A stretch of 64,000 nt of DNA from Pelobates cultripes (Eukaryota > Chordata > Amphibia > Anura > Pelobatidae). Position numbers and translations under genes: made by a program. Shown piece by piece: positions 11,361-48,493 of the stretch. Where the stretch lies: contig OW240921.1 in NCBI GenBank assembly GCA_933207985.1, positions 20,097,044 through 20,161,043 on the forward strand, written 5' to 3'. The notes under the pieces are model-generated. The model was not told the origin of the DNA. It saw only the letters and a program-made list of their open reading frames with translations, and searched no databases. The first letter of the stretch is position 1. Each line of letters starts with the position of its first letter.

Positions 11361-11960
11361 CACACCAAAACATTGTAGTACACTGAGATGACACACATTT
11401 TCCAGCAATGTGTCTAAAAATAAATACACCCATGCCCTGATAGATCTCATAGGTTCCCAAATCACTCTAAGGCACCTGGGAAGGTCATGTTTGCAAGGGG
11501 TTGCCATTCCACTTCAAATGAGTTGCTCTCCAAACAAACCAACTGGTACCTCCCCCACACTGCAAATACAAAAAGATCGCCTGCATATCTCAAGCTGAAA
11601 TCTATGTGGTACCTAGCTAAATGCTGTCAGGGAGACTTCAACATTCTGTGCAGAAGAGGTGCCAGAATATGAAAACACAAAGAGTATAATGTATATCCCT
11701 GTCTCCACCTAAACCTCGGTTTACTCCAAAAAAACACGATTTACAGAAAAAACAAATAAAATTGATGTGGTGTGCTATACAAACATGTTAAAGTCACCAA
11801 CTAAGTGGTATACATACACTGGTAATGAGTCTCGCGGAAAGTATTGGTATAATAATCCCAGTTAGGAACAGAAATTCCAGCTTTAATCACTTAAAAAAAT
11901 AAAATAAAAAATATGAAACAAAACATAGTGTAAAACCATACAAAAAGACGATCTAAAAAA
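11361..11960. other. No gene seen; repeat-derived sequence
   Basis: A continuation of the repeat-like region with no exon, inverted ends or open frame worth reporting. Confidence 0.4.
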
Positions 11961-14322: not shown

Positions 14323-15841
14323 GTGCAAATTAGTCTTATGTCTTTAAATGTTAAGGGGTTGAATTCCCCTAGGAAGCGATCTATCCTGGTACAGGAATTA
14401 GAAAGACAGAAAAAAAATATTGTTTTTATCCAGGAAACTCATTACAAAAATACCTTTCAGCCTACAATTAATACGAATAGAGTCAAACAGACCTTCTATA
14501 GTAACTTTGTAAAAAATAAATCTAGAGCATTGGCAATTTTTATAAACTCTGACTTGAATTTTATCCAACTAGACAGTAAATTGGATTGAGGAGGAAGATA
14601 TTTTCTTAAAAGGGAAGGTTAATGATCAAATGATCACACTGGTAAATATATATGTACCCAATGTTAATCAGGCATCATTCTTGAGCACCTGCCTGAGGAA
14701 ATTGGAGGATTTTAAGGAAGGAGTTTTGATAGTTGGTGGAGATTGTAATATAGTGCTGGATTATGCTTTAGATAGCTCCTCAAAGACTAGAGAAACACAG
14801 ATGAACCAGAGGTCATCAGTGCTAAAAACATTACATTCCTATCAATTGATAGACTGTTGGCGTATCTTGCATCAGGGCGAGAGGGACTATACCTCTTATT
14901 CAACACCTGCAGATAGATATATTGTTTGTAAACCATAGATATCTACATTTAGTTAAAGGAGCAAAAATAGTGAATATTACATGGTCTGACCATGCCCCCA
15001 TTTTTGTAGATATTGAGCTGCAAGGTGATATGAGGGGTAAAAACACCTGGAGACTAAAGGAGTCCCTCCTGGATGACCCAAGAGTCATCAAGGATTTAAC
15101 AGAAACAATATCCCATTATTTCTTAGATAATTGTACAGATGATATCAATGATATGTGGATATGGGAGGCTCATAAGTGTGTGATCCGGGGGGTTCTGATT
15201 AAATGGGGAGCTAGATGTAAAAAAGAACGTCCTGAGGAAATAGAAAAGATGACGAAAACGTTAGTGGCAACAGAGTCTACCCATAACCAAACTCCAACAG
15301 AGGAGAATTTTAAGCACTTAATGGTAGTCAGATCAAAGCTAAGGGCATTATTGAACTACGAAGCTCAAAGAGCGGTCCAGCTGACTCAAAGTACATTGTA
15401 TACATACGGGGATAAAAGTGGGAAATTCTTAGCTAAAACACTCAAAGCTAAATTGCAAAAAACTTATCTATCTAAAATGAAAGATAAACAGGGGAAAATT
15501 TGTAATACCACTGAGGAAATAGCAAATACTTTTAGTAATTATTATAAAGATCTCTACAATTTAAACCCCCCAGAAAAGACCCCTTACGATAGAGTGCAAT
15601 ATCTATCCAAAAATATACCAATAAAAATTTCAAAAGAAACAGCAGCGCAAATGGAGGAATTGTTCTCCCTGGAGGAACTCTCGGCGGCGATTGAGGCAAT
15701 ACCCCTTAATAAAAGTCCTGGGCCAGATGGATTATCAGCACGCTACTTTAAACAATTCCAAAACATTCTTGTCCCACACTTTCTCAGGGCCTTTAATGGA
15801 TTGTCTTCAACTACTGACATTCCACCATCAAACACAAAAAT
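14323..15841 (+). pseudogene. L1/Tx1-like LINE ORF2: endonuclease and start of reverse transcriptase
   Basis: Begins MVQISLMSLNVKGLNSP, an APE-type endonuclease start, followed by FIQETHY with the catalytic Glu. Frame breaks occur at about 14588 and 14937. Near 14970 the TWSDHAP motif (endonuclease C-terminus) follows in the last frame, then the linker and the first RT motif, LNKSPGPDGLSA, at about residue 260 of that frame. RT is cut off at about 15841, before the catalytic YADD block, where unrelated repeat DNA begins. The missing RT core and frame breaks mark it as dead. Confidence 0.8.
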
Positions 15842-16497
15842 ACAAAAAAGTGTGCCGCGCTTGTGTGAAATACCCTTAGATATATGTCAATGGTGCATAC
15901 ACCGTATGTTTGTGTGTTAATCAATAAAAGTAAGGATAAATACCCCAATATAGCTAACTTTCAGTAGGTCTTGACCCTGTATACAAAAGACAGGAAACCC
16001 ATAGCATAATACTGTTATGGTAAATAAATTGATATAATAGTCTATATAGTCCAACTCACATATAGTGGAGCCTGTTTACAAAAGAACTGGCTCAGGTAGT
16101 ATCACTTGGCAAGATGTTTCTTGAAAGGATTCCAAAAAGAATGGAGCTTGGTCCTCGATAAATGTGAGGGACAGGATAGGCAAACACGAATTGGAAATAT
16201 AAAAAGAGTAACATTTATTCAAAAAACGTATAAAATCTTACATCAGTGATGTCTTTAAAATAGCACAACGTATTTAAACGATAGTATTTGTCTTCCTCAG
16301 GGGCAGTAATAAGAACAAAGAGGGGGGGCAAAGTGGATGGAGGGGGACTCCCTAGGCTCCCAGGTAAGTCCCCATACCGCGATCGCTGGCGACCTGGTAA
16401 GTACATAGGACAGCCTGGACGCACTATGCCGCTCCCCCGGCGTTTAGAGACGGTTCCGTAAGGACGGCATAGAACGCCCGATGTCTTTGAGGGGTTA
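15842..16497. repeat. Repeat DNA replacing the LINE RT core
   Basis: Sits between the ORF2 RT start and the ORF2 C-terminal tail. 16335-16497 is a second copy of the GC-rich family of 1190-1500, again ending in ggggttaa. Around 16270-16305 the reverse strand reads a CTGAGGA box, but no matching GAAA follows, so no ribozyme is called. About 2 kb of expected ORF2 is missing, so this is replacement and not a simple insertion. Confidence 0.5.
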
Positions 16498-17160: not shown

Positions 17161-20100
17161 CTATTGCCAAAGCTTTTTAACACACGTAGAAAGATAAAGA
17201 TAAAAAATCAATGCAGTCGGGAAAAGACGGCTGCTACTGCTTTTAGCTTCAGTGCACGTTGCCTCTTCATTAAAGGTTTTAAAATCTTTGGTGATTGTTT
17301 CATTCAGTCTATAACAAATTTTAGGAGAGGTACAGCCATGTGTAGTCTCCTTGGTGATCAGCTGCCCTATAAATGAAAAGAGGAACTATTATACTTGAGA
17401 AATATAGTTGAAAACAATTACTATTTACAAAAAAAAGTTTACAATCTCATAATCTTATGAATGATTATCTGTCTATCTCATCAATCTGTCCCAATTTTTT
17501 GTCCATGTTAGACTCAGTAAAACTTGTACTTCTGAAGAGCCGGTATCGTATTCAGTGTTCATGAGATCTGTCTTTCATCATCAACTTGGAGAAAGAATGA
17601 GGACCTTTACTCAGGGCATGGCTACTAAAACAAGACACTGTTTTGCGAGCAGGTCATCCACTACCATCAAGTCTCTTTTTGGGCATTCCTGATTCATTAT
17701 GTCAAGGAAAGAGAGACATTGAGCTTCTTCAAAAGAAAGTGTTTTTAGATCTATACACTGGGTATTTAGGGTTTAGGTTAGCATTAGGTAGAGTTAGGGT
17801 TAGATAAGGTTTGAAATGGTGTCAAATTTGTGATGCTAGTCAATATGGTGAGGCATATTGTCACTTAAACGAGCATGTCTTCAATTTAAACCTATGTTTC
17901 CCACAAATCTGTCAAAGGTGTATGTGGGAAGAAATAGAACACACAAGGCCTCTGAAATTCACAATTAAATCACAATGTGTGTAAGAAAAAGAAAACTGCT
18001 GAATTTGACAGGAATTTGTTAGGAAATAACCAGGTGTAAAGACTCAAATTATTTAGCACGTCTTCTTTTACAGCGTGTATTCCATGGTCCAGAAACAGCG
18101 CAGTTGGGGGCTACTATTATGTCCAATTGTAATATGATATATTTACCATGTGTCAGCAATTTTTTGTGTCTGATACACTTTGTTTCATTCCCAGAACATT
18201 CAATATATGCATTAGGTTGGCATACACCATATGTATCAATATAACAGGAAGGGCAGACCAATCCATTTCCTTTACTTAGTGATTGCTTGGGAACTGAAAA
18301 TGAAGATATAACAGTAATCTGTGTTAATGAATCTAAATTATAATATTAAACAATTGTGGTTACTTTTATATTATTCAACATTTCAGGAAAAAAAAGACAG
18401 ATAATATAAATGGAGAGTAAAAAAATGTTTGAAGAAAAACTTTTTTACCTTGAAAATTCTTAACACACAAAAAAATGTATTTTGAGTTTTAATTCAAAGT
18501 CACCTTTTACTAATATGTATTTTATTTAAAAAAAAAAAGTCGTCACTATACTTTGTGGGTGTCACGGATGTCATTACCCTAACACACAGGAAAGAGGATA
18601 CCCACAAATAAAGGGTCCTAATGTAGAAAACTATAGAATCAAAGTCAGGAATAGCCAAAGTCAGGAATACAGATATACGGATATACGATTTTCTAATCTA
18701 TCAAGTACGCGCCTTTGGAGTGGGCAACATTTGAACTTATTTTTGCAGAGAGCAGCAGCTTGGCGTTAGCGAATGTGGAGGAGCAATTAGCTTGTGCCGA
18801 ATGAGTAAGTATGTTTCTCATACAGGTTTCCATCCATGTGTACGCTTGAAGAAGTTGGGCCGTGAGGCTAGATGGGAACTGCTCAGCACGGAGCAGGCAA
18901 TTATTGCTATAGTTGGGAGTTTTAATGTGCTTGGCCTTATCTCTCTCTTTTTGGCATATTGCTATACAGTCTCAAAGTGGCTTCAACTAACAGATTAGAT
19001 CATGCTGATGAGACCAACAAGGTTGAAACTGTACAGTCCATGACACTTTTTGGTCACTAATCCTTTTGGATTACAATCCAGGCTATGGTTTGAAAAAAGA
19101 ATGTGTTTAAAACATCATCCATTGTGAAGGATGTTGACAAAAATGCAGAATGAAGTTTGATACCCAAGGCGTATCTGTGCTCATTTGCATGTCAAGCCAG
19201 GAACTCTGGGGTAGTTAAGCTGGGGACTCTGGAATACTTGAGGAAACATTGTTTCTTGAGTTTTTGTGCCCAATGAGGACTTTAGCAATATCAAACTTGA
19301 GATAACCAGATGATGGATAACAGTAATTCTTTCTACTTGTACTGAAGGGGTTTTATCGTGTTTGGTCTCACCACACTCTTTTTGGTACCTAGCTATATGT
19401 TTCCAGAGAAACGTCAACTTCCAAACCAGAACGCGCACCATGCTGAAGAAATCCACAAGGTCAAAACTGCAGTCCATGGCTGGTCTCTGGGCACTGATCC
19501 TTGGATCATAGCACATGCCAAGGTTTAAAAAACAAAAAACAAAACAACAACCTGTGTTTAAAGCAGCATCTGTTGTTAAGGGTACCTGCAGGAATGCAGG
19601 ACAAAGTATGAAACACAATGCCTGTGCTCATTTGCATGTTAAGCCAGGAACTCTGGGTTAGTTGTGGAAACATGATTTTTTTTTAAGTTTACGGTGCCCA
19701 AGTGGATAAAAAAAGCGATGATGTACTGAAACACTGTACAGACCTAAACAAAATTACAAAAATAACTTTAAGTACTCACAAGTGGGTATTCTGGATACAC
19801 AGTTGTCAGTGTAACAGCAAGTGATGTTTCTTAGTATGATCCGATCTTTACTTCTTGTGGAACCAGTGATCTTACACTCACTGTATTTTCCACATCTCCT
19901 TGTAATCCTTGTATACATTTCTCCTCCTGAGAAATAAAATGTTAGTAGCTAATAAGTTAAAAGCAAAAATGGTTATTAATCATCACAACAGTAGACAACT
20001 CATGACAAGATTTTTTTCTATGAACATGACAGAAGCTTTGAGTTCCAATTCACCTTAAAATAGGAACTACCACTTCCTAAATGTTTTATACTATTTTATT

Positions 20101-22204
20101 CACTAAATTCTGAATGGACCCAAACTGAATAAGGCAAAAACAGTTTTTGCTGAGTGGACTATTCAGACTGAAAAATTTGGACATTTTGGAATTCAAAAAG
20201 GTCCGGATTTTGTAATTCAGGCCCTGAACAGGCCTGAACAGGCCTGAATTTAGTACAGATTTCAGCCGGACTCAGTGCCACCGAATGCACTGGGTATGAC
20301 TGAAATCCAGACTTAGAGGCTTGAAGGCTTTGCGGCTTCATTGCTGCCCAGTCACTGGAAAAGGCCCCATCTCATGAAGTTTCACTTCTCTCAAGATTAG
20401 AGTTCTAATCTAATCTGTTAGAGTTCTCTAATTTTTTTTCCTAATGGTCAACCAGTCAGAGTGCTTTAACTTATATTGCAAAACGTGGGAAATTTTAACA
20501 TGCTTTGAGATAGTTGACATAGCATAGGAAAGCCTATATAAGGACTTTCCCCGTGATCAGATCTCAGTTTGTGGCAATCCCCCCATGGGAGAGGATGGAT
20601 TAATTTTATTGCATCTCGGTTTTTATTTTTCCCAGCCTTTTTTTTTTTGCGATTGGGCTTTTTTCAAACGTTAAACAGTTGCATCGGGAATCCTGGATTT
20701 TAATTTGACCTTTTTTGGTCTTATTTTTTGCACTTCGGCACTTCAGTTTGGTTCAGCACTTCTGAAATTCAGGACTTGAGCACTTTTGAGACTTCTGCAA
20801 TTCCCTAAACCTAACCCTACCCCTACCCCTAATCTAACCTTACATCTAACCCTAACCCTACCCCTAATCCTAACCTTACCCCTAACCCTAACTCCTAATC
20901 TCAAGCCTACCCCTACCCCTAATCCTAACTCTACCCCTAAACTAACCCCTAACCCCTAACCCTACCCCTAACCTAACCCCTAAATCTAACTCTAACCCCA
21001 CCCCTAACCCCAACCCCTAACCCTATTCCGAATCCTAACCCTACTCTGAATCCTAACCATACCCCTCAGTTTGGTTCGGCACATCCAAAATTCGACACTT
21101 CGGTAATTCGGTTCGTCGGCTCTTCCGAAATTCGGCACTTTGGCAAAGCGTCCGAATTTAAATTTGGATGGAAACTAATCACACATATATTTATATACCA
21201 TATGAACAACTAGTAAATCATCCACACATGTATACGAAGTTGAAAAAGCCTCCCACTTCCAAATATTGTCCGAGCCGGATACGATCAGCTATCCCAATAT
21301 GGCGACGCATCCGGCTCTAAATGAAGTCCTCTTACAACCCCAATATGTCCACCAATCTTCTTAATCTTCTTACAAATCCATTAAAGGAACGACCGATGCA
21401 TCACTTCCTGTGACGTTTTTCTTGTTACGTGCACCGTCACATGATCGTCCCGTTCGTGATTCTGCCAGTGCGTAATTTATTTACTATTTACTCACGGATG
21501 GGACGATCATGTGATGGCGTTTTAAGTGTAAATAGTGGCATTGCACTTGGGTTATTTTTATCAGCACCAGTTTTATATCGTGTTAGCAACATTTTTTTCT
21601 TCAGTCTGTCACTATTCCAAAGGCATGTTCACCCCTACTTTAAAATTAGTTAGGGCCCCCACACATCCCTTGGAGAGGACACTAAGTCCTCCCCACAACT
21701 AACTTCTTCACCTCTTGTCTCTGTCAATATTATTTTATAGGTCAATTACTTCTCAAATATCTACATTATATAATTGTAAAGCACTGCAGAATATATGCCT
21801 ATATTCGTGTGGTATAAATGCTTATAATAATATCAGTATATTTTCATACACACACACATGCAAGCGTAAATGCATGCACATTTACGCCAGCTGCACAAAC
21901 AAAAATTTAGACAAAGAGGAAACAGAGCACACACACGCACATGCACACACACGCATTACAGAGTCACAAGTATTAAAAACCATGATGCATATTTAAAGCA
22001 GTTTTTTATTTTTTATTTTATCTATGAGATGCAGATTTTATGCAGATCAAGACACCAATTGGATTAGAACATGTTGTGACATACCAGTGATGGTCTGTGT
22101 GGCTATAGTGAGACAGGCATTGTGCTCAGAAGAACACATGGTTGGTCTATCCGAGCAGCTCTCTCCTGTCCATTCATAGCACTCCATGCATAATAAATGA
22201 TGTA
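17161..22204 (-). CDS. Second two-domain three-finger (Ly6/uPAR) gene, 3' four exons
   Basis: Minus-strand exons 22204-22085 (120 nt), 19926-19780 (147), 18293-18147 (147) and 17366-17161 (206 with stop TAG) splice in phase 1 throughout, mirroring the first gene (120/150/147/116). Domain 1 carries LCMECYEW, then CGKYSEC and ITCCYTDNC (10 cysteines). Domain 2 carries VCPSCY, then HGCTSPKIC and ATCTEAK (8 cysteines). Sequons NIT and NET are present. Unlike the first gene, the C-terminus continues through SSSSRLF into a hydrophobic stretch (ALIFYLYL) and ends KKLWQ, which could be a GPI-attachment or membrane tail. The signal-peptide exon was not found: it should lie above 22204 but may be displaced by transposons or lost. 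Complete from domain 1 on, it would add about 206 aa to a signal peptide. Confidence 0.82.
17763..17815 (+). repeat. Short TTAGGG-like tract
   Basis: Degenerate 'tttagggtttaggtt...gttagggttag' sequence inside the intron between exons 4 and 5 of the second three-finger gene. Too short and diverged to be a telomere relic with confidence. Confidence 0.5.
19000..19043 (+). ncRNA. Type I hammerhead ribozyme, intact core
   Basis: Stem I is TCATG (19000-19004) with CATGA (19039-19043). Box 1 is CTGATGA (19005-19011). Stem II is GACC/GGTT with loop AACAA (19012-19024, one G-U pair). Box 2 is GAAA (19025-19028). Stem III is the self-complementary CTGTACAG (19029-19036). The cleavage triplet is GTC, with cutting expected after 19038. 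All invariant core residues are present. It self-cleaves RNA if the plus strand is transcribed; activity is inferred. Confidence 0.75.
19438..19481 (+). ncRNA. Hammerhead ribozyme copy with damaged box 2
   Basis: Stem I CCATG/CATGG is a perfect 5 bp, box 1 is CTGAAGA (19443-19449), and stem III CTGCAG is followed by TCC. Box 2 reads AAAA where GAAA is required, which should abolish cleavage. This is the second monomer of the 438-bp array. Confidence 0.6.
20140..21195. mobile_element. hAT-like non-autonomous element with C-rich telomere-like tract
   Basis: The right part (21060-21190, 'ttcggcac' repeats then 'gaaactaatcacaca') matches the right end of the MITE at 54493-54622 ('gaaactaattgcaca'). 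20805-21065 is a run of CCCTAA/CCCTACC-like units, about 260 bp. The left end is not defined. Located in the intron between exons 2 and 3 of the minus-strand three-finger gene. Confidence 0.45.
20805..21065 (+). repeat. Interstitial telomere-like (CCCTAA)n-type tract
   Basis: Many CCCTAA hexamers are mixed with CCCTACC, CTAATC and CTAACT variants. Degenerate throughout and embedded in a repeat element, so not evidence of a chromosome end. Confidence 0.75.
21196..21880. other. No gene seen
   Basis: Intronic sequence of the second three-finger gene. Contains complementary 'acatgatcgtccc' / 'gggacgatcatgt' segments near 21440 and 21500, suggesting an old MITE, and a CA-rich patch at 21850-21955. 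Confidence 0.4.
21885..21935 (+). mobile_element. PLE N-terminal scrap
   Basis: About 40 bp (from 'cagctgcacaaac' to 'gaggaaacagagca') is nearly identical to 23252-23292 within the larger PLE fragment, so this is a duplicated scrap of the same element. Confidence 0.5.
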
Positions 22205-29029: not shown

Positions 29030-29985
29030 TAGTGATGTCGCGAACATTAAATTTTCGGTTCGCGAACGCGAACTTCCGCAAATGTTTGCGAACCGGGCGA
29101 ACCCGGCGAACCGCCATAGACTTCAATAGGCAGGCGAATTTTAAAACCCACAGGGACTCTTTCTGGTGGGTGGGGGCCATAAAGATAATGAGGGGGGGAC
29201 CTACAGTCCTCCCCCTCTCTGGCCCCCACCCCTGTGCGGCGGGTGGGGGCCCTAAAAATAACAATCAGAGTGTTCTTAGCCTAATTGCAGGGCGGGGGAA
29301 GGCTTTATAAGCCTTCCCCCACCCTGCGGAGCTCAGTCTGCGCGGAGCCCTCCATGGGTGAAGATGGATTATTTTTTTGCGCTGGGGTTTTTTCTTTTTC
29401 GTTGGGTTTTTTTTTTTTTGCGCTCTGGATTTTTTTTTTTTTTTACTTCGACGGTTATGATGGTTTTTTATTTTTTGGAGCTGAAAAATGAAGATTTGAG
29501 AAAAAAGAAGACGTCGAATGGTAAGTTTAATTTTATTTTACAGGTTAGTTATTTTATTCCCCCCTCACTATTTTTTAGGGTGAGGGGGGTAGGTAGGGAC
29601 TTTTTATTTGGGGGGGTGGGTGACTAGGGGCTTGAGGACCCCTAGTCACCTTGGGGGGGGGAATTTACTTAGGGCCCCCACCCGCAGCCCAGGGATGGGA
29701 GGCGGGGGGGAGGACAGTAGGTCCCCACCCCCTCATTATCTTTATGGCCCCCACCCACCGCGCAGGGGTGGGGGCCAGGGGGGGCAGTAGGTCCCCCCCC
29801 TCATTATCAATATGGCGGTATTGCGAGTAGGGGCACAATTTACTAATACTAAGTAATTTTTACTTAGTATTAGTATATGAATAGGGGGCGGACCGAACAT
29901 CGCATATGTTCGCCATCCGTGGCAAACGCGAACACGCTATGTTCGCCAGGAACTATCCGCCAGCGAACCGTTCGGGACATCACTA
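29030..29985. mobile_element. hAT MITE, TSD GCTATAAT
   Basis: Ends TAGTGATGTC and GACATCACTA, with a perfect 8-bp target duplication (29022-29029 and 29986-29993), as expected for hAT. Contains GC-rich 'cccccaccc' blocks and an internal palindrome near 29840-29878. 956 bp and non-coding. The other complete copy is at 41703-42610 (opposite orientation) and a truncated one ends at 43789. Confidence 0.88.
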
Positions 29986-30065
29986 GCTATAATCACTAAG
30001 GCTCTGGCGGTTCGGGAGGAAACTACAGAATAAGATTTAAATATACTTGGTTTCCTAACACTTTC

Positions 30066-31868
30066 CTACTTGAGGTTGACGCCTTCGAGACAGGGGTCGG
30101 GGCTGTTCTTTATCAGAGAGAGAGTCAGGATGCCCCTTTGCATCCTTTTGGTTACTTCTCCTGCCGAGCGTAACTATGACATTGGTAATAGAGAACTGTT
30201 AGCCATCACACTAGCACTTAAGGAATGGCGACATCTTTTGGAGGGTTCCAAGTATCCCATTCTGATTATTACTGATCACAAGAACCTGGCATATATTGGG
30301 GATGCCAAACGACTGTCTTCTAGACAAGCTAGGTGGTCATTATTTTTGTCTTGCTTTAACTTCATTATCACCTACAGACCCTGTTCTAAGAACATTAAAG
30401 CTGATGCCTTGTCTGGGCAATTTGACATTGAATCGGATCTAGAACAAGAGACATCCCCTATTATTTCTCCTGAGTATATTATTGCATCCACTGTCCTTTC
30501 TTTATTGTCCCCTTTGCTCCGTGCTATCATGGTGGCTCAGCCCCAGGCGCCTTGCAACAAACCTCAAGATAAATTGTTTATTCCATTGCCTGACAGGAAC
30601 GAGGTGCTGAAGGTATTCCATGACAATGTGACCGCTGGGAATCCGGGTATTAGTTAAACTGTATCTGCCTTTTCCAGGTCATTTTGGTGGGAGTCACTCA
30701 GGAGGGATATTAAAGATTATGTAGAAGCCTGATCTGTCTGTGCTGTTTCGAAGGTTCCTCGTAAACTTCAGTGTGGATTGTTACAGCCATTTTCTATACC
30801 CAGTATCCCATGGTCTCATTTATCGATGGATTTCATTGTTGAACTGCCTATTTCCAATGGGTATACAACCATCCTCATGGTAGATGACCGTTTTTCGAAA
30901 ATGGCACACTTTACTCCACTTAAAAAATTGCCATTGTCTCAGGACCTGGTGCACATATTTATACGCGAAATGGCTACATGGTATTCCTCAAAATATTGTG
31001 TCTGACAGGGGTTCTGGAGGGCATATTGTGTTCTGGAGGGCATTCAATAAACAATTCAGCATTGAATTGTCATTTTCCTCTGCTTACCATCCCCAAACTA
31101 ATGGTACGGCTGAAAAAGCTAACCAATCACTTGAGCTGTATTTACGTTGCTTCGTGAATAGTACACAGTCTAACTGGGCTGAATTATAGCCCTGGGCTGA
31201 ATTTGCAAGGAATAATGCTACCCATGACTCATCTGGACATAGTCTGTTTTTTGTCAATACGGGTCATCATCCTGCTGTTCTCCCTGATGTGTTTTCAGAT
31301 ATGGCTATCCCTACTCTAGGTGATCACATTACCTCTATACTTGGACTAAGGTTCAGGCCGCTCTTGAAACTACGACTGCTCGCTTTAAGTTTCATGCGGA
31401 TAAACGGCGGAGTGCCAATCCAGTTTACCAGGTGTGTGATCGGGTTTGGTTATCCTCACGCAACATCAGGTTGAAGGTTCCCAGCATGAAGTTTGCTCCG
31501 AGGTTTCTTGGTCCTTTTTGTGTGGTTAGGAGAATCAATCTTATTTCTTATTCTCTGGCCCTTCCAGTGTCCTCATGTATACTTAATACTTTTAATGTGT
31601 CCTTGCTCAAACCGCTTCTTTGCAATCGGTTGTTCCCCCTCCTCCTTTGGTTGTTTCTGGACAGGAGGAGTACGAAGTCTCGTCCATCATTGATTCCAGG
31701 TTTTCTTGTGGTTTCTTACAGTATTTGGTTGGTTGGAGGGAGTATGGGTCTGCTGACTGTTCTTGGGTTTTGGCTTCTGGTCGTAAAATCTGTTCTTTTG
31801 ATGCCAAGTTTCCTCTCAAACCTGGTCCTACCCACCCAGTGGGCGGTCTTCAGGTGGGGGGGGGGGTA
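30066..31868 (+). pseudogene. Chromovirus RNase H, integrase and chromodomain
   Basis: After the solo LTR the pol frame resumes with LLEVDASETGVGAVL, then NRELLAITLALKEW (RNase H). The integrase follows: MDFIVELP and MVDDRFSKMAHF at 30829-30910 supply the first catalytic Asp region, and SAYHPQTNGTAEKANQS at about 31078-31130 the block with the catalytic Glu. Stops at 30657, 30733 and near 31187 and frame shifts break it. A chromodomain (YEVSSIIDSR, YLVGWREYG) at about 31660-31790 places it among chromoviruses. The polypurine tract follows. Confidence 0.82.
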
Positions 31869-31869
31869 A

Positions 31870-32325
31870 TGTCACGTATTCATCTGCACATAAAAATGTG
31901 GTTAATGGCATTTACCGTCCTGACACGAAAAGTTGTGCTGAGCAGCATTACCGTCCTGACAGGAAAAGTTGTGCTGAGCAGCAATCATGCAATCGGATCC
32001 ACTTGAGGCGTATTTAAAATTAATTCTCCTTTTGCTCATTGCCCTGTCGTGGTTTCATCCTGATGGTAATCCAAGAGTGCTTTCCTGATCTTGATTTTCT
32101 GGTATTTGACTTTGGCTTAGTTTTGACTTCCCTGAATTCTGTTATCTTTGACTTTTGGCTTTCCCTCATCGTTGTGTCTGAGTCTGTGTTCCTGACCTCG
32201 GCTAGTATTTTGACTATTCTTGGATATGTGAAGTCCGGCCATTATAAGGTCCAGTTATACGTTGTCCTTAGTTCTAGGTGTGACACAGTTCTGCGTGCTG
32301 GATCAGCTTGTAATCCTGACATTCA
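31870..32325 (+). mobile_element. Chromovirus 3' LTR (approximate end)
   Basis: Begins TGTCACG directly after the polypurine tract and contains a tandemly repeated 'accgtcctgaca' segment. The right end is placed at a CA dinucleotide before the next LTR fragment, but without the 5' LTR for comparison it is uncertain. Confidence 0.6.
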
Positions 32326-32339
32326 TTAAGTTCAAAGAA

Positions 32340-33145
32340 AACAACAAGAATTTAGTGCTCTCTTTGTGTGGCCGCCATTTGTATAACCGAACGCCACTTG
32401 GTGGAGAAAATGGTGGCCATCTTGTCGCACTAAAGCAGGCAGCGGGACTTAGTCGTTGAGTGCCTGGAACTCTGAGGCGGCCACTCGACGGCCTGAAAAC
32501 TGGTGAAACCATACGAACGCCTGAGAGTGCTTTTAGGCAGTGTTTTTTTGACTGGATCTCCCGAAAAAACACTGCCCACGAGCTAGGGGACCCGTTCACC
32601 TTTTTATTCAGTTAATAACCCTCGAACTAGACCGACCACTACCTCTATAACTATGGAACTATTTTCAAGCGTCTCAAGAGAGGTCGATCAAATCTGCACC
32701 CCAGTGGCGATTCGACTAGGTTTGTGGGATCTGAGCGCTTTTTGTGAATGTTGTGTGCTCAGATCCAAGCTATCTGGGGATGTATAGACTATGGGGGTCA
32801 GTTATGCAAAATATGATTTTATGTATTTTAAAGGATTTTTGGAGTTTAGTAAAAAAATGTAAATGTTTTCTGTACCCGGACATAACTCAGTTTAATACAG
32901 TACTTAACCCAATTATCTCCCAGATACAGAGGAGGGGTTACACTGTTTTATGTGTGAGTGTCCTGGACCTGAGAGACAATGTGATTGTTTGTACTGTAGT
33001 CTACTCTCAGGTCCAGGGGTTAGTGCCCCTTGCATGGGGACTTGCATAAAAGGCCAGTTGTGGCTACCATTAAACACATTGTTTTACCCCTTCATGAAGT
33101 GTTGGCTCATATTTGGGGGATTGTGAGCTATAATCACTAAAACAT
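32340..33145 (+). mobile_element. LTR fragment related to 27195-30060
   Basis: Shares 'ggcagcgggactt', 'ccttgcatggggacttgcataaaa' as two shorter blocks, and the closing 'gctataatcacta' with the solo LTR. Ends inside a PLE at about 33145. Confidence 0.65.
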
Positions 33146-34655
33146 CTTCTATGCTTGGATTTCGGGACATTCTTCATGGATATACTCAGTCGGAGAAAAT
33201 ATCATGACAACGACAGTATAGAATCATTACCAACATTTGTGACCACATACAATACAGCTGCCACTGAAATTAAAAGGATCATTCTAACACGCTGGCCGAT
33301 TAATACTTGTGATAATATGATGCAAATTGAGCAAACAAATAAACCAAGAGTGGTGTTCAAACAAAATACAACTATCAAAAACCTTGTAGCCCCAAGTATG
33401 CCACGTATGAAAGCAAACATGACCATTGCAACAATACTTCTGAAATGAATATACAGATGTAACAGGAAAGCTTGCTCCACATGTGGGTTGATCTCAAACA
33501 AAGACAACAACCAACATTTCTCGTCAAACCATCTAGACAAAGAAAAAACATATGAAATTGAACAATTTATTAATTGCATTACATTATATGTGATATATCT
33601 TTACGAATGCCCTTGCGGCAAACAATATGTGGGACGCACATGTAGGAAACTTAAAACAAGAATAGGGGAACACTTAAGAGGAATCAAGAACAAATGTATC
33701 AATCATGGTGTACCCATCCATTTTGCAGAAAACCATGGAGCTAACTCAAGAGATCTAATAGTGAAAGGCGTTGAGGCAATCAAACAGACCCTCAGGGGAG
33801 GTGATAGATTAAGAACCCTCAGGCGAAGGGAATCATATTGGATCTTCAAGCTTGGTACACTCTGGAATGGGGGCCTCAATAAAGACCTAGATCTAGCAGC
33901 CTTTTATTAATTTAAATGTAATTTATTCTATATATTTTTTATTCAATATTTATTTTTATTTCCATTTTTCTTTTATTTTAGTTTTTTTATTTAGTTGTAT
34001 TTATATCCTTATTTTAGTTTCATTTTTTTTTTTTTTTTTTTTTTACTTATATTTTATTTACCAAAGAATGTTCTGCCACATAAGAAGAGTTTACTGGCAC
34101 CATCACTCCTTCTCCAATACCTGGGGACTAATTAAATAAATCATCTCCTCTATGTATTCTCATGTTTCATATAGTAGATACAATACAAAGTTTCATTGAT
34201 TGAGACTCAGTACCCTGCTGTGTGAAACTAGCACTTTTTATACACACCTCTCTTTGATAGAACATTCTGATGCTATGTTGGCTCACATTATAACAATGTG
34301 TGCTTAATACACACTTGCTTAGTTTTAATGTTTAAGTACAGTTTTAGCTCACTAATTCAGTATATCTTAAACAAAAGTAGTACTTGATCTGAACCTTTTT
34401 TGATAAGGAGATACTTCTTTATGCAACACATATCTATTGCTTTATATGTATTTTAAGAAGTATTACCTACTATCAGTATCTATACCCCTATTGTTATTAT
34501 TTCATTATTTTATTATGCCATAGCATGTTTATAACAGAGTTTAGTAAACAAGTCCTCCTTTTTTATCCTGGGTATTGTTATCCCTTTAAGACTCACGTGG
34601 GAGTGGGGGGATTTGTATCACAGGGGATTGCGTGTGATTCAAGTACCCAGTTTTT

Positions 34656-34698
<43 letters not shown>

Positions 34699-34860
34699 TT
34701 GTATTTTTACTTACATACTTTTATTTATTTTTAATGTAGCATATTTGTATTCTGTTACTTATTTTTGAATAAACTTCCTTCACCATAGAAGCCCTCCTTC
34801 TCTGTTTTGTGTTTTCTAGGCACATCAACTAAAAAATTATATAAGATTAATAAGACTTTT
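33146..34860 (+). pseudogene. PLE fragment with GIY-YIG endonuclease
   Basis: 33155-33448 encodes the PLE linker (LTRWPI, then RVVFKQ and KNLVAPS). 33488-33910, in another frame, encodes the GIY-YIG endonuclease: LYECPCGKQYVGRTCRKLKTRIGEH, read here as two shorter runs LYECPCGKQYVG and KLKTRIGEH, then RRESYWIFKLGTL and GLNKDL. This domain nicks target DNA for PLE insertion. RT is absent. The following 3' region has a poly(T) run (about 34028) and a TA microsatellite (34661-34694), and ends near 'aataaacttcc' (34768). Confidence 0.75.
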
Positions 34861-35096
34861 ATAAATCAATTTTATATATGTATTTGTTATTCTGACATCT
34901 GTATTTATCTTTTAGTCCTAACCTGTGATTAGCAATTAGTGAAGTGTTTGCTATAATAATTAATGATCAATAGAAAAGAACAAAATTAAAATAAAATATA
35001 TTTTTTTTTATAATATGCAGGAAGTAATATATTCAATTTCTCTTTTAGTTAATTAGACCTTGGCACTGGAAACAGGTAAGTGTAAAAAGGGTTTTT

Positions 35097-35260
35097 GTCA
35101 CATAGAAACATAGAATGTGACGGCAGATAAGAACCATTCAGCCCATCTAGTCTGCCCAATTTTCTAAATACTTTCATTAGTCCCTGGCCTTATCTTATAG
35201 TTAGGATAGCCTTATGCCTATCCCACGCATGCTTAAACTCCTTTACTGTGTCACTTTATA
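35097..35260 (+). repeat. Dispersed 'acatagaaacatagaatgtgacgg' type repeat
   Basis: Starts 'cacatagaaacatag' and continues to 'ccatctagtctgcccaat', a sequence type widespread in amphibian genomes. Duplicated at 48894-49055. Class not determined. Confidence 0.5.
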
Positions 35261-35859
35261 CTCCAACCGGGAGCGGACGACCTAAGTAAATTGACTGAGG
35301 GACACTATAACACTAGGAATACTATATGCTATAGTGTTGTTTTAACTGACGACGACAACAACAACAAAAAAACCAAAAGGTGACTAAGAATTATATAAAA
35401 ACACCTCAAATAGCGATATATATTTTCCAATAAAGTTTGCTATGCCCAGGGATTCTCCAATCCTGATGTATAGGCAAAAAAACCCCCACAAAAAATGGTA
35501 CAGAAAACTTATAAGATAGCAGAGTTAACTACTGTGATGGTAAATATATAGTGAATCATTGCTTTCCCACACAAGCCAAAATTCATTAAGCGCATTGAAT
35601 ACAACTAATAAAGGCATGACAGGACAATGGATGATCTCTCTCTTTTTCCTTGTTATCTTATTAACAAAACAATAATACTCCTTCGTAAATATGAATTATC
35701 TGGTCCCAACTGCTGTCCCCTGTTGGTTAGGGGTGAACATTTTTGAATCAACAACCAGTTGGCTTGAAGGTCTGGATTACTTTTTTAGGCATTTTTGTTT
35801 GTGACAGGTTTGTGTTAGTGGTCAATTTATATTTATTATTGCCAAAGAGAAATTAAATT
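35261..35859. other. No gene seen
   Basis: Contains a small hairpin (35295-35340, 'actataacacta' against 'gctatagtgtt') typical of a MITE fragment. Nothing else is recognised. Confidence 0.4.
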
Positions 35860-36048
35860 AAGTCTATGAAAATTTTAACAGGTGGGGGAGCCACAGTGGG
35901 AGTACATTACATGGATCACACAGTGGTCTAATTCATTAACTCATAGAGCAGGCAACACTCTTGATCTCAACTTCACCAATCTCTGTACCACCTCTAATCT
36001 CTCCAATGTTCCATTTCCTTTATCTGACCCCATCTGTTGTTCATTGAC
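35860..36048 (+). pseudogene. Rex1/L2-like LINE endonuclease fragment, copy 1
   Basis: HRAGNTLDLNFT and PFPLSDP match the C-terminal part of APE endonucleases of Rex1/L2-type LINEs (usual THxxGNTLDL ... PLSDH). The LINE is interrupted at 36048 by the PLE, with the insertion target TGTTCATTGAC at 36038-36048. The same LINE continues at 53401 beyond copy 2. Confidence 0.7.
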
Positions 36049-37409
36049 CCGCAATGAACACAATGAGTTTGTCCTCAGACTGTTGAGGTTTATATTGACT
36101 CATAATTACTTCCTCTTTAAAGGCAACTACTATCACCAGGTGAAGGGCACAGCGATGGGTACGACTTGTGCACCATCCTATGCCAACCTTCACCTGGGGT
36201 GGTGGGAAAGTAACATTGTCTTCAACCCTAGTCTCGATAAATTTAGCGTACACATAAACCTATGGAAACGCTATATCGATGACATTTTGATAGTGTGGAC
36301 AGGTCCGATTGATCTATTCCATGAATTCGTGGAAGTACTCAATGTGAATGAGATTAACCTTAAATTCACTTTCGATATAGGAGAGAAAAGACTGAATTTT
36401 TTGGACCTAACTCTCGAAATTTCTCATAACAACGATTTCACCACCACGCTTTTCAAAAAACCAACCGCAACCAATAACTTTCTGAACTGGGAGAGTCATC
36501 ACCCCCCTGCTTTAAAAAGTGGGATACCGACAGGCCAATATCTCAGACTAAGGAGGAATTGTTCCTCCCAAGAAGATTTTAAAATAAAAGCACAGACCCT
36601 GAGATCCCTTTTTAAAGCCAAGGGATATCCAAACAAGTGTCTAAAAAGAGCTTATCACAGGGCACTAGCTACCGAAAGGACCAACCTTCTGTCCGAAAAG
36701 TCCCCCCCCCCCCAAAACAAAAATCAGGAAATAATAAGATGTATTGGAACCTTTGATTCGGGTTGGGACGGTATGAAAAAAAACACTAGAGAGATTCTGG
36801 CCACTACTGTACCAAGATACACATCTTAAAGATGTGCTGACACCCCACGTATCGATTACAGCAAGGAGAGGTCAGAACTTAAAAGATATTTTGGTTCCAA
36901 GCCATTTATCTCTCCCAAAACCTACTAACACCTGGCTTAAATCGCCTGCTGCCGGCACCTTTCAGTGCAGCAAGTGTAAGGCCTGTAAATTTATCCGGAA
37001 ACAATCGAAATCATTCTCTAACTCGGATAATACTGAGATACACACAACTAAAACCTTCTTTAACTGCAAAACCGAGGGCCTAATATACCTCATTACTTGC
37101 AGTTGCAATTTGAAATACGTGGGGAAGACTTTCAGACAGTTTAAAACCCGCATCCTTGAACACATAAACTCTGTGAATCCATCTAGACAGATAGATACAT
37201 CTATATCAAGACATTTGAAAATTAAACATGCCGGCTCTGCACAGGGCTTACGCTTTAATGGAGTAGAAAAAATAAAGTTGGGACCAAGGAAGGGAGATCT
37301 GGACAAAAGACTCTTACAGCGAGAGAGCTTCTGGATATTTAAATTAAAAACTTTATCCCCCTTGGGCCTTAACGAAGGATTCTCATACACTCCCTTTATC
37401 CCTGATTAA
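36049..37409 (+). pseudogene. PLE reverse transcriptase and GIY-YIG endonuclease, copy 1 (frameshifted)
   Basis: RT middle motifs KGTAMGTTCAPSYANL (about 36146) and YIDDILIVW (about 36272), then the linker, a Cys-rich segment (CSKCKACK) and a GIY-YIG domain (LIYLITCSC, KYVGKT, RILEHI, RESFWIFKL, GLNEGF). One extra A near 36778 shifts the frame, splitting it at 36829/36834. The N-terminal half is missing by 5' truncation on insertion. PLE RTs prime on the nicked target, and GIY-YIG makes the nick. Confidence 0.85.
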
Positions 37410-39615
37410 ATACCGGTTCTTCCCTAGCAACACTTCATTAATTTACTATTTAATAATTGGAAATTAATCCATCAAAAGAGTAAATACTACTTAGATACAT
37501 TCAATATGGAAATTTACCCCTGGTATGTCTGTGACTGACCCCTAGTGGCTCAAAGAAGGTATACAGCCCTCATTATTATAGCCTGTCTAGTGGGTATCTT
37601 CTGGATACACTTTAATTATACTATATAACTCACTCATTTGAGTAAATTATGTCCAGTAAGATTTACACATGACCGATCACTCTGATCCCATGATGACACA
37701 TGATCCATTAAAAGTTATATAAATTACTTAAAATTTAATATATCGTATGCTACTTTTCCCCCCATCTCCTATTTATAATACTATACACGCTATTTGGATA
37801 TATGGACTAGCACAACGTACCAGCCATCTAAATTGACAAATTGAATTGATACTGCCAATGGGAATGGCTGGACAAATTTCGATTACCGAAATACTAATCT
37901 CCATTTAGTAAGAATAAGAACTGACGAATTTATCTGCATTATAAAAAGCCTCAATATTTGATTATGTATATCAGAGGCATTTATCACCTAGTATTTATGT
38001 AGACACACTGGTATATGAGTATCTGGCAATTTATTTACGAACATCAAGCCATTGATAATACCCGCACATGGGAATTTTGGGTATAAGCTCAGCTACTACT
38101 ATTTTCACATGACTGCTAAGAACAGTATAGCGGGGGTTAATTCCGCCCGTAAATCGAGAATGAGGCTTGATAATGAAATGATCATTACCCTAATAGGAAG
38201 TACAGTTAACCTGACCGCCCATATTTATATAATCCTTATGATATCCTGGGATAGGTATTAGGTCCCCATGGCTGAGCGAGGGTTAAAATCCCTTATTTTC
38301 ACTTTTTAGAGGTTTTTCGCTCAAAGCCTCTCTACCCATTCTCATGATCCCACAGGCGTCCAGATAACCCATGATGAACCGTCTACTTCTCAAACAATGC
38401 CTTGTGATAGCAATACACTGATTTTACATGATATAAATTTCTTGACGAATCATTCGTCTCTGATTATAAAATTTACACAGATATATTCACCTTCGTCCTT
38501 TCCCTATTCTATGAAGCAAGTCACTCCATCCAATGAGTACATACAGGGTTAAATATAAACCACACAATGTAGAGGTGGACTTAACCCTGATTGGAGTTTT
38601 CTTCCTTTTTTTTTTTTTCTTTATTTAAACAGCGAATTAGCATATTCTGACGTCATTTTGGCGCCAACTGACGGTCCACACAGGAACCCTGATTGGTGGA
38701 ATCCTCTCAACAGTTACAATACCAGGGGTATTTAAACAAGGTCTAGGGTCCATAACGAATTCAGCCCCTGACGAAGGTGCATCACAGCACCGAAACGCGC
38801 GTCGGGTTGAAGGAGGTTTTTCTCCTTCACTTTCACTCACTTTTTATTTTCACTTCTAGGGCACTATTTCACGATGTGTAGGTAACCAGCACTCTAAGCA
38901 TGGTTCTACACATTAGCACTATTATTTCCTAATTTTTCACCTTTTCCTCCTGTCACTCCTGATATGCTATCTAGATTGGAATTATCTATTTGATTGAGGA
39001 ATCTGGACTGGCTCTGTATGTATTTGAGGGGGCAACAGATACTCTTTGTACCCCATAGCGATTTAGGAAACCACTAACTTAAGATTTATCATTTATGACA
39101 TATTTTGTGATTAATCTACAAATTTTCATGTAGACTTTTTTCCTTTTATTATATGTTACTTGGTATCCAGCTAAATGCTGTTATCCCTAATTGCTGATTG
39201 CTTAACTACACTCTTATTGTAGCTTTTTTGATACAGCGGGCTTTGCTACAAGTGTTACTTTATATACAGCCACTATTCAAAGTTCCTCTTTGACTGATTG
39301 TCTTTTCCATCTAGATTACAGGAGTTAATTTAAAGGCTCATTCCACAACCGCTTTTACTGTTGACATGGACATACTATGGTTGATTATATTAAAGTCCTG
39401 AGTCTCAAATAGATTCTTTACGTCTAAGAGTCCTTTAGACAGGAGAAGAGCCATTTAGGCTATTTTAATCACTTGAATCTACGTATGAACCCTCTCTATA
39501 TTCCGACATATTGATGGCAATTTTGATTTAATTATCTATTATCTACTAATATTTTGTCCAGCTGACAGTCCTGGTTCTGGTTTCAGTGACCAGTAACAGG
39601 AAAGTCATTTTCTAG
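37410..39615 (+). mobile_element. PLE 3' region / pseudo-LTR, copy 1
   Basis: 2.2 kb after the PLE stop codon with no long frame. Holds the hammerhead ribozyme (38760-38811). In this copy the sequence runs straight on into an ORF start at 39799, as expected where tandem PLE units share a pseudo-LTR. Confidence 0.65.
38760..38811 (+). ncRNA. Hammerhead ribozyme in the PLE, copy 1
   Basis: Stem I is TTCAGCCC (38760-38767) with GGGTTGAA (38804-38811), 8 bp with one G-U. Box 1 is CTGACGA (38768-38774). Stem II is GGTGC/GCACC with loop ATCACA (38776-38791). Box 2 is GAAA (38792-38795). A minimal stem III follows within CGCGCG, and the cleavage triplet is GTC, cutting after 38803. All core residues are present. 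Hammerheads with very short stem III are known from PLEs and may act as dimers. Confidence 0.85.
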
Positions 39616-42893: not shown

Positions 42894-43789
42894 AATTTTC
42901 CCAATGTGTAAAATGACACGGAGCACTGTGATTGGATGGCTTGAAATCCATCCAATCACAGTGCTCTGTGTCATTTTACACAGCGTGTGCAATTTCTTTG
43001 GAATTTTCCCACGCTGTGTAAAATGACAAAGAGCACTCTGATTGGCTTAAACCTACCAATCAGATTGTTCTTAGCCTAATTGCAGGGCGTGGCAAGGCTT
43101 TATAAGCCTTCCCTTGCCCTGCGGAGCTCAGTCTGCGCGGAGCCCTCCATGGGTGAAGATGGATTATTTTTTTGCGCTCTGGTTTTTTCTTTTTCGTTGG
43201 GTTTTTTTTTTTGGCGCTCAGGATTTTTTAAATTTTTTTTTTGTTCGACGGTTATGTTGGTTTTTTATTTGGCCTTTTTTGGGGCTGAAAAATGAAGATT
43301 TGAGAAAAAAGAAGACGTCGAATGGTAAGTTTAATTTTATTTTACAGGTTAGTTATTTTATTCCCCCCTCACTATTTTTTAGGGTGAGGGGGGTAGGTAG
43401 GGACTTTTTATTTGGGGGGGTGGGTGACTAGGGGCTTGAGGACCCCTAGTCACCTTGGGGGGGGGAATTTACTTAGGGCCCCCACCCGCAGCCCAGGGAT
43501 GGGAGGCGGGGGGGAGGACAGTAGGTCCCCACCCCCTCATTATCTTTATGGCCCCCACCCACCGCGCAGGGGTGGGGGCCAGGGGGGGCAGTAGGTCCCC
43601 CCCCTCATTATCAATATGGCGGTATTGCGAGTAGGGGCACAATTTACTAATACTAAGTAATTTTTACTTAGTATTAGTATATGAATAGGGGGCGGACCGA
43701 ACATCGCATATGTTCGCCATCCGTGGCAAACGCGAACACGCTATGTTCGCCAGGAACTATCCGCCAGCGAACCGTTCGGGACATCACTA
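42894..43789. mobile_element. hAT MITE lacking its left end; left junction of duplicated block
   Basis: The right end GACATCACTA is intact at 43789 but no TAGTGATGTC left end is present. 42907-42942 and 42950-42985 form a long hairpin ('gtgtaaaatgacac', 'gagcactgtgattgg' and complements). 43060-43284 is similar to 29268-29480 but visibly diverged; from 43285 it is identical. Confidence 0.65.
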
Positions 43790-43864
43790 GCTATAATCAC
43801 TAAGGCTCTGGCGGTTCGGGAGGAAACTACAGAATAAGATTTAAATATACTTGGTTTCCTAACA

Positions 43865-45672
43865 CTTTCCTACTTGAGGTTGACGCCTTCGAGACAGGGG
43901 TCGGGGCTGTTCTTTATCAGAGAGAGAGTCAGGATGCCCCTTTGCATCCTTTTGGTTACTTCTCCTGCCGAGCGTAACTATGACATTGGTAATAGAGAAC
44001 TGTTAGCCATCACACTAGCACTTAAGGAATGGCGACATCTTTTGGAGGGTTCCAAGTATCCCATTCTGATTATTACTGATCACAAGAACCTGGCATATAT
44101 TGGGGATGCCAAACGACTGTCTTCTAGACAAGCTAGGTGGTCATTATTTTTGTCTTGCTTTAACTTCATTATCACCTACAGACCCTGTTCTAAGAACATT
44201 AAAGCTGATGCCTTGTCTGGGCAATTTGACATTGAATCGGATCTAGAACAAGAGACATCCCCTATTATTTCTCCTGAGTATATTATTGCATCCACTGTCC
44301 TTTCTTTATTGTCCCCTTTGCTCCGTGCTATCATGGTGGCTCAGCCCCAGGCGCCTTGCAACAAACCTCAAGATAAATTGTTTATTCCATTGCCTGACAG
44401 GAACGAGGTGCTGAAGGTATTCCATGACAATGTGACCGCTGGGAATCCGGGTATTAGTTAAACTGTATCTGCCTTTTCCAGGTCATTTTGGTGGGAGTCA
44501 CTCAGGAGGGATATTAAAGATTATGTAGAAGCCTGATCTGTCTGTGCTGTTTCGAAGGTTCCTCGTAAACTTCAGTGTGGATTGTTACAGCCATTTTCTA
44601 TACCCAGTATCCCATGGTCTCATTTATCGATGGATTTCATTGTTGAACTGCCTATTTCCAATGGGTATACAACCATCCTCATGGTAGATGACCGTTTTTC
44701 GAAAATGGCACACTTTACTCCACTTAAAAAATTGCCATTGTCTCAGGACCTGGTGCACATATTTATACGCGAAATGGCTACATGGTATTCCTCAAAATAT
44801 TGTGTCTGACAGGGGTTCTGGAGGGCATATTGTGTTCTGGAGGGCATTCAATAAACAATTCAGCATTGAATTGTCATTTTCCTCTGCTTACCATCCCCAA
44901 ACTAATGGTACGGCTGAAAAAGCTAACCAATCACTTGAGCTGTATTTACGTTGCTTCGTGAATAGTACACAGTCTAACTGGGCTGAATTATAGCCCTGGG
45001 CTGAATTTGCAAGGAATAATGCTACCCATGACTCATCTGGACATAGTCTGTTTTTTGTCAATACGGGTCATCATCCTGCTGTTCTCCCTGATGTGTTTTC
45101 AGATATGGCTATCCCTACTCTAGGTGATCACATTACCTCTATACTTGGACTAAGGTTCAGGCCGCTCTTGAAACTACGACTGCTCGCTTTAAGTTTCATG
45201 CGGATAAACGGCGGAGTGCCAATCCAGTTTACCAGGTGTGTGATCGGGTTTGGTTATCCTCACGCAACATCAGGTTGAAGGTTCCCAGCATGAAGTTTGC
45301 TCCGAGGTTTCTTGGTCCTTTTTGTGTGGTTAGGAGAATCAATCTTATTTCTTATTCTCTGGCCCTTCCAGTGTCCTCATGTATACTTAATACTTTTAAT
45401 GTGTCCTTGCTCAAACCGCTTCTTTGCAATCGGTTGTTCCCCCTCCTCCTTTGGTTGTTTCTGGACAGGAGGAGTACGAAGTCTCGTCCATCATTGATTC
45501 CAGGTTTTCTTGTGGTTTCTTACAGTATTTGGTTGGTTGGAGGGAGTATGGGTCTGCTGACTGTTCTTGGGTTTTGGCTTCTGGTCGTAAAATCTGTTCT
45601 TTTGATGCCAAGTTTCCTCTCAAACCTGGTCCTACCCACCCAGTGGGCGGTCTTCAGGTGGGGGGGGGGGTA
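43865..45672 (+). pseudogene. Chromovirus RNase H, integrase, chromodomain, copy 2
   Basis: Same protein blocks and the same stops as 30066-31868 (stops at 44461, 44537 and near 44991), so it was already dead before duplication. Polypurine tract at 45657-45672. Confidence 0.82.
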
Positions 45673-45673
45673 A

Positions 45674-46129
45674 TGTCACGTATTCATCTGCACATAAAAA
45701 TGTGGTTAATGGCATTTACCGTCCTGACACGAAAAGTTGTGCTGAGCAGCATTACCGTCCTGACAGGAAAAGTTGTGCTGAGCAGCAATCATGCAATCGG
45801 ATCCACTTGAGGCGTATTTAAAATTAATTCTCCTTTTGCTCATTGCCCTGTCGTGGTTTCATCCTGATGGTAATCCAAGAGTGCTTTCCTGATCTTGATT
45901 TTCTGGTATTTGACTTTGGCTTAGTTTTGACTTCCCTGAATTCTGTTATCTTTGACTTTTGGCTTTCCCTCATCGTTGTGTCTGAGTCTGTGTTCCTGAC
46001 CTCGGCTAGTATTTTGACTATTCTTGGATATGTGAAGTCCGGCCATTATAAGGTCCAGTTATACGTTGTCCTTAGTTCTAGGTGTGACACAGTTCTGCGT
46101 GCTGGATCAGCTTGTAATCCTGACATTCA
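45674..46129 (+). mobile_element. Chromovirus 3' LTR, copy 2
   Basis: Identical by eye to 31870-32325, starting TGTCACG after the polypurine tract. Right end uncertain. Confidence 0.6.
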
Positions 46130-46143
46130 TTAAGTTCAAAGAA

Positions 46144-46949
46144 AACAACAAGAATTTAGTGCTCTCTTTGTGTGGCCGCCATTTGTATAACCGAACGCCA
46201 CTTGGTGGAGAAAATGGTGGCCATCTTGTCGCACTAAAGCAGGCAGCGGGACTTAGTCGTTGAGTGCCTGGAACTCTGAGGCGGCCACTCGACGGCCTGA
46301 AAACTGGTGAAACCATACGAACGCCTGAGAGTGCTTTTAGGCAGTGTTTTTTTGACTGGATCTCCCGAAAAAACACTGCCCACGAGCTAGGGGACCCGTT
46401 CACCTTTTTATTCAGTTAATAACCCTCGAACTAGACCGACCACTACCTCTATAACTATGGAACTATTTTCAAGCGTCTCAAGAGAGGTCGATCAAATCTG
46501 CACCCCAGTGGCGATTCGACTAGGTTTGTGGGATCTGAGCGCTTTTTGTGAATGTTGTGTGCTCAGATCCAAGCTATCTGGGGATGTATAGACTATGGGG
46601 GTCAGTTATGCAAAATATGATTTTATGTATTTTAAAGGATTTTTGGAGTTTAGTAAAAAAATTTAAATGTTTTCTGTACCCGGACATAACTCAGTTTAAT
46701 ACAGTACTTAACCCAATTATCTCCCAGATACAGAGGAGGGGTTACACTGTTTTATGTGTGAGTGTCCTGGACCTGAGAGACAATGTGATTGTTTGTACTG
46801 TAGTCTACTCTCAGGTCCAGGGGTTAGTGCCCCTTGCATGGGGACTTGCATAAAAGGCCAGTTGTGGCTACCATTAAACACATTGTTTTACCCCTTCATG
46901 AAGTGTTGGCTCATATTTGGGGGATTGTGAGCTATAATCACTAAAACAT
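46144..46949 (+). mobile_element. LTR fragment, copy 2
   Basis: Copy of 32340-33145. One base change was noticed, near 46664 (T where copy 1 has G). Confidence 0.65.

Positions 46950-48450: not shown

Positions 48451-48493
<43 letters not shown>

Follow-up and report, generated by a model that had tools for sequence, protein, structure and literature searches.

A probable decayed retrozyme dimer with one intact hammerhead core in Pelobates cultripes DNA

A short tandem repeat at positions 18899-19706 of a 64,000-nucleotide stretch of the Pelobates cultripes genome (contig OW240921.1; the whole stretch is called the window below) is most probably what remains of an animal non-LTR retrozyme that was inserted long ago into an anuran genome and has since decayed. 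The repeat holds a first monomer with an intact type I hammerhead core and an incomplete second monomer in which the core is broken. This interpretation rests on an Rfam match and on a descriptor hit that shuffled windows do not give, on a partial dimer with ends out of phase, on the 436-nt spacing and on a weak palindromic stem III, together with the Penelope-type frames, a GIY-YIG frame, two weak hammerhead matches and a relic fragment (11601-11659) found in the same window. It is weakened by the lack of a target-site duplication, by a modelled circle no more stable than shuffled ones, by the lack of a relative outside the window in the viral_contigs scan, by a hammerhead score under the Rfam cut-off and a hammerhead fold that is not the minimum, by neighbouring matches at an E-value of only 0.5, and by a unit slightly longer than the reported 170-400 nt RNAs. 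On the best reading the element is an ordinary representative of the known retrozyme kind and no new system. Among the titles listed in searches of a partial paper library, none was about this particular element.

The hammerhead motif in the first monomer

The features of the repeat are the following.

18899-19706, plus strand: partial tandem dimer, retrozyme-like, about 1.9 monomers (local alignment, profile search)
18899-19324, plus strand: monomer copy 1, 426 bp, counted in phase from the left edge at which the element becomes detectable
18999-19044, plus strand: type I hammerhead ribozyme with intact core (Rfam Hammerhead_1, descriptor scan)
19028-19037, plus strand: 10-nt palindrome ACTGTACAGT, which forms the weak stem III (read from the sequence)
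19325-19706, plus strand: monomer copy 2, 382 bp, right end incomplete (local alignment, profile search)
19438-19480, plus strand: second hammerhead, degenerate (letters read; no hammerhead match)

The original observation was that every hammerhead core residue is present at this site, and copy 1 indeed carries CTGATGA (19005-19011), GAAA (19025-19028) and GTC (19036-19038), with a predicted cleavage site at 19038/19039. The three stems and the self-complementary stem III that had been claimed were also confirmed: stem I is formed by TCATG/CATGA, stem II by GACC/GGTT, whose basal pair is a G-U wobble, and stem III by ACT/AGT around GTAC, the whole of stem III being palindromic (ACTGTACAGT). 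The palindrome could, as judged from its letters, allow pairing between copies. The elements that define type I (core CUGANGA, GAAA and UH, three stems, stem I open) are found together in copy 1 only. A longer stem I, GATTAG/CTAATC, is possible, and the best pairing seen was reached by 515 of 5000 shuffled flanks, which is not significant.

A covariance-model search had been proposed as a check, and it returned an end-to-end alignment with Rfam Hammerhead_1 at exactly 18999-19044, although with 28.0 bits the match stays under the gathering score, the curated cut-off of the family, which is 34 bits. The E-value was 1.9e-4 when 1.1 kb was searched and rose to 0.011 when the search covered the whole window, both computed against all 4227 Rfam families, and a default Rfam search of the whole window gave zero matches at the gathering score. 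A strict descriptor, consisting of the core plus stems I, II and III with minimum lengths of 4, 3 and 3 pairs, matched once in the window (18999-19044) and in none of 60 dinucleotide-shuffled windows. As a sequence, the hammerhead motif is real.

A chance hammerhead-like sequence is a highly improbable explanation. It would fit the score below the Rfam cut-off, and it would fit the folding results: the 49-nt motif folded no better than its own shuffles (z 0.52, with 132 of 200 folding equally well or better), and in a 74-nt fold the hammerhead structure reached -5.6 kcal/mol versus a minimum of -16.3 kcal/mol, the folding programs preferring non-hammerhead structures for this motif with models that leave the core and tertiary contacts out of account. 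Chance does not fit the absence of descriptor matches from the 60 shuffles, the low E-value of the local stretch against the full set of families, or the repeat context, in which the second monomer carries a recognisable, degenerate hammerhead.

The tandem dimer and the decay of its second hammerhead

Both BLAST and local alignment place the two copies head to tail, with an alignment that starts at 18899/19325 and stops at 19279/19706. A profile made from the two copies finds 18899-19323 and 19325-19706, as it must by construction. The second monomer noted 438 bp downstream therefore exists and the core-to-core distance is 438, whereas the cleavage sites are spaced by 436 nt and the repeat amounts to about 1.9 units. 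The ends of the dimer are out of phase (426 bp versus 382 bp). Between the copies, 276 of 346 ungapped columns are identical (80%; K2P 0.24), with 71 gap columns; BLAST, which counts gaps, gives 67% identity over 325 columns. Because the copies are only 80% identical (K2P 0.24), the insertion looks old.

Could the two monomers instead be the remnant of a tandem satellite of the newt satellite 2 type, left by a rearrangement and never passed through a retrotransposed circle? We regard this as unlikely. The monomers do stand in tandem, the classic amphibian case is newt satellite 2 (PMC6155905), and no target-site duplication was found between 18840-18935 and 19690-19800, where the longest shared word is 5 nt (a length reached by 200 of 200 shuffles); such a duplication is, for its part, not universal among animal non-LTR retrozymes. 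A satellite would leave unexplained why the copies number only about 1.9 and end out of phase, and why the unit profile picks up nothing in the window beyond these two and a single short relic, and it overlaps the retrozyme reading in any case, as PMC7229834 counts such satellites as retrozymes.

The same profile result led us to reject a long array within the window. Tandem Repeats Finder misses even the 18899-19706 dimer and so provides no evidence on arrays either way. An upstream copy 0 before 18899 was rejected as well, since the left flank aligned with a score of 40, under the mean of 100 shuffles (50.5; maximum 77). The stretch 19790-20300 aligned to the element with a score of 57, for which the only comparison is the left-flank shuffles (mean 50.5, maximum 77). 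The direct repeats listed in 17500-21000 are the two copies and a CCCTAA-like array only, and BLAST of 18400-20000 found no other repeat pair flanking the dimer. A 148-codon minus-strand frame overlaps the dimer and is taken as chance. The modelled 436-nt circle folds at -102.1 kcal/mol; its shuffles average -102.4, and 15 of the 30 are equally or more stable. Two exact patterns of the monomer had 0 matches each in viral_contigs, an unlikely place for relatives.

The second hammerhead is damaged at several points: G12 is changed to A (19463), 2 nt are lost from loop III, and the first pair of stem II, at its base, is an A-C mismatch. Its cleavage site would lie at 19474/19475. Rfam gave no hammerhead match at 19438-19480 up to an E-value of 10, and on the opposite strand only a weak, unrelated lncRNA match. 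G12 is essential for hammerhead catalysis. With a single intact core, the release of monomers or circles would not be expected at this locus, and their release through two independent hammerheads was rejected because G12 is lost in the second core. The proposal that a transcript could release 438-nt circles or monomers is thus unsupported; a plus-strand transcript could today undergo at most weak cutting at 19038/19039.

There is also a joint proposal, which we find very doubtful, that the intact half would act in a mixed dimer to cut the copy 2 site and yield a 436-nt monomer, with the family moved by the local Penelope-like elements through a shared tag. This would add a frog family with a large 436-nt unit, mobilised now or recently. 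The mixed dimer would pair TCATG/CATGG in stem I and ACTG/CAGT in stem III, as read from the letters and not computed.

The hammerhead has not been better conserved than the sequence around it: 34 of its 42 columns are identical between the copies, the same rate as for the whole element (276/346), as expected under neutral decay. This between-copy column comparison gave no sign of selection on the ribozyme. With one of two diverged copies intact and no such sign, the case suggests that a genomic hammerhead can retain a perfect core simply as a neutral remnant.

The element is best conserved at 19175-19216, where 40 of 42 columns agree between the copies (P 0.005, uncorrected for the selection of this block). 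This block contains an octamer that recurs in the second copy.

19183-19190, plus strand: octamer ATTTGCAT, copy 1, within the best-conserved block
19630-19637, plus strand: octamer ATTTGCAT, copy 2, with the same letters

Counting both strands and both element copies, the window contains this octamer 10 times. Octamers belong to snRNA promoters, and ATTTGCAT is a possible snRNA-type promoter element, which we give as a lead only.

The probable surrounding gene and the orientation of the element

The element is flanked by minus-strand pieces with the look of three-finger exons.

19778-19930 (limits approximate), minus strand: three-finger exon that, in the direction of the gene, precedes the intron holding the element (Pfam matches below cut-offs, then GTGAGT)
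18052-18345, minus strand: open frame with the next three-finger exon (cysteine pattern; no Pfam match)

Four exon-like pieces on this strand fit a two-domain gene of the Ly6/uPAR type, as far as their sequence tells: one at 22.1 kb (UPAR_LY6, 18.6 bits, under the curated cut-off), the exon at 19778-19930 (UPAR_LY6_2, 22.4 bits, cut-off 31.5; UPAR_LY6, 17.1 bits, cut-off 24.8), and those at 18.2-18.3 kb and 17.2-17.4 kb, which show the cysteine pattern only and no Pfam match. The element lies between the second (19.8-19.9 kb) and the third (18.2-18.3 kb) of them, on the opposite strand. The claim that it is antisense to the host gene was right, with the element on the plus and the exon-like pieces on the minus strand. 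Its placement in an intron of a three-finger gene is supported by the flanking pieces, and we infer an intronic position in a putative Ly6/uPAR-type gene from Pfam matches that stay under their cut-offs.

Amniote genomes contain intronic hammerheads (RECK, C10orf118), and a similar recruitment by the host gene was considered, which would agree with the intronic position and with one core kept intact while its sister is broken. We hold it to be extremely improbable. The antisense orientation speaks against any part played in the host mRNA, as the pre-mRNA, made from the other strand, would be without the hammerhead; the hammerhead columns are conserved no more than the rest; and if each copy is given half of the K2P of 0.24, or about 0.12 changes per site, simple arithmetic leaves an intact 13-base core in about one of five copies. 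A function of the ribozyme in the host gene was rejected on the grounds of wrong strand and no extra conservation.

A telomere-like array of about 44 degenerate CCCTAA units occupies 20803-21066, which lies between the first and the second exon-like piece of the putative Ly6/uPAR-type gene.

Comparison with known retrozymes and the Penelope-type neighbours

As reported by Cervera and de la Pena 2020 (PMC7229834), animal retrozymes consist of tandemly repeated units of 150-450 bp, with type I hammerheads and a GC content below 50%, and their RNAs, linear and circular, measure about 170-400 nt. The same source describes amphibian hammerheads as having a weak (palindromic) stem III and working better as dimers, and proposes Penelope-like elements as the movers of animal retrozymes. 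The repeat described here has a 436-nt spacing, a GC content of 0.40 and a type I hammerhead in each unit, with the caveat that the second one is recognisable yet broken. The GC value does not discriminate, because that of the whole window is 0.39.

That the repeat is of one kind with newt satellite 2 and the retrozymes, as had been proposed, is supported by this anatomy: a type I hammerhead, a weak palindromic stem III, a short tandem repeat and an amphibian host. The axolotl retrozymes HHR_Amex1/2 (330 and 350 bp; PMC7229834) share the first three of these traits, and Penelope-like elements are reported in the axolotl genome as they are inferred here; compared by description, our case differs in its 436-nt unit, its anuran host and its decay to one intact core. 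Newt satellite 2 is likewise an amphibian tandem repeat with a type I hammerhead that acts as a dimer, but it is a satellite DNA of about 330 bp, whereas only a single partial dimer is seen here. An snRNA promoter has been reported for newt satellite II (PMC2220036), to which the octamer in our best-conserved block corresponds as a candidate only. Perreault et al. 2011 (PMC3088659) had already reported repeat-associated hammerheads from Xenopus tropicalis, so that hammerheads of this kind are no novelty in frogs; by description, the likeness lies in the host being a frog, and X. tropicalis has its hammerheads in multi-copy interspersed repeats. What we have is probably an anuran case of a retrozyme-like element near Penelope-type frames, the amphibian type having been characterised in salamanders.

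The following features of the window bear on a Penelope-type supplier.

49674-51203, plus strand: 509-aa frame, read as part of a Penelope-like element (domains of homologues; no Pfam match itself)
38762-38809, plus strand: weak hammerhead match, read as minimal Penelope-type (Hammerhead_1, 22.9 bits, E 0.5)
52556-52603, plus strand: the same weak hammerhead match in a duplicated copy (Hammerhead_1, 22.9 bits, E 0.5)
11601-11659, plus strand: relic fragment resembling the stretch just upstream of the hammerhead (nhmmer, BLAST)

Canonical Penelope-like elements are described as defined by the pair of reverse-transcriptase and GIY-YIG domains (PMC11167929). Of the 448 homologues of the 509-aa frame, many carry reverse-transcriptase domains and some GIY-YIG domains, and this domain pair suggests that the frame is part of a Penelope-like element. 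Among the best 120 of the 448, the named homologues are mostly from frogs, with the salamanders Ambystoma and Lissotriton also present, and the best named ones come from Leptobrachium leishanense (57%) and Pelobates cultripes (59%). In a duplication that includes it, the second copy carries the frame uninterrupted over 509 aa, but in the first copy it falls into two pieces. This duplication, with an offset of about 13.8 kb, covers at least 29280-39300 and 43075-53094, with frames and tandem repeats recurring; 38400-39200 and 52194-52994 are 99.5% identical by BLAST.

The two weak hammerhead matches, which have identical letters at 38755-38815 and 52549-52609, sit about 1.35 kb downstream of the frames read as Penelope-like, one in each copy of the duplication. 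Both are under the gathering score of 34 and both are missed by the strict descriptor. They may be minimal hammerheads of Penelope-like elements; the Penelope-type elements of the window show no BLAST similarity to 18.4-20.0 kb. GIY-YIG endonuclease frames lie at 33449-33910 and 47253-47714 (Pfam 27.1 bits, above the cut-off, for the first one, which was tested) and are perhaps the end of another Penelope-like element. A further frame, 14853-15920, has no Pfam match and 11 homologues, the four named ones being from Leptobrachium or Pelobates. The protein hits of these frames, which belong to mobile elements, point by themselves to an anuran host, perhaps one close to the spadefoots.

The relic at 11601-11659 is the sole further trace of the unit found in the 64 kb. 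It scored 16.0 bits with nhmmer (E 7.4e-5), versus 9.0 bits for the best of 40 shuffled windows, and BLAST aligned 42 nt of it at 79% (E 0.002). It alone shares 19 of 21 nt with 39161-39181 and 52955-52975 (BLAST E 0.01-0.02 within the window), each about 0.35 kb downstream of a weak hammerhead match. This 21-nt resemblance, noticed after the fact, may be chance.

The history that we favour, the decayed retrozyme, would run as follows. A source repeat would have given a multimeric transcript that was cut by its type I hammerheads, which probably worked as dimers through the palindromic stem III, and the cut monomer would have been ligated to a circle. A reverse transcriptase, most likely supplied by a Penelope-like element, would then have rounded the circle nearly twice, and the resulting cDNA would have been inserted as a 1.9-mer. 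Drift after insertion would have altered both monomers, so that one hammerhead core was kept and the other lost G12. Proximity of a retrozyme to a Penelope-type element is a prediction of the proposed mobilisation by Penelope, but the two are reported to occur together widely and their proximity is no proof.

Other possible mobile DNA is also seen in the window. Sub-cut-off matches to microRNA models were found on both strands of a hairpin of about 80 nt at 42903-42984, which looks like a small inverted-repeat transposon. Two adjoining minus-strand frames at 60528-61313, with helix-turn-helix Pfam matches below the cut-off for 60852-61313, have the look of a broken transposase, which we take to be of the Tc1/mariner type.
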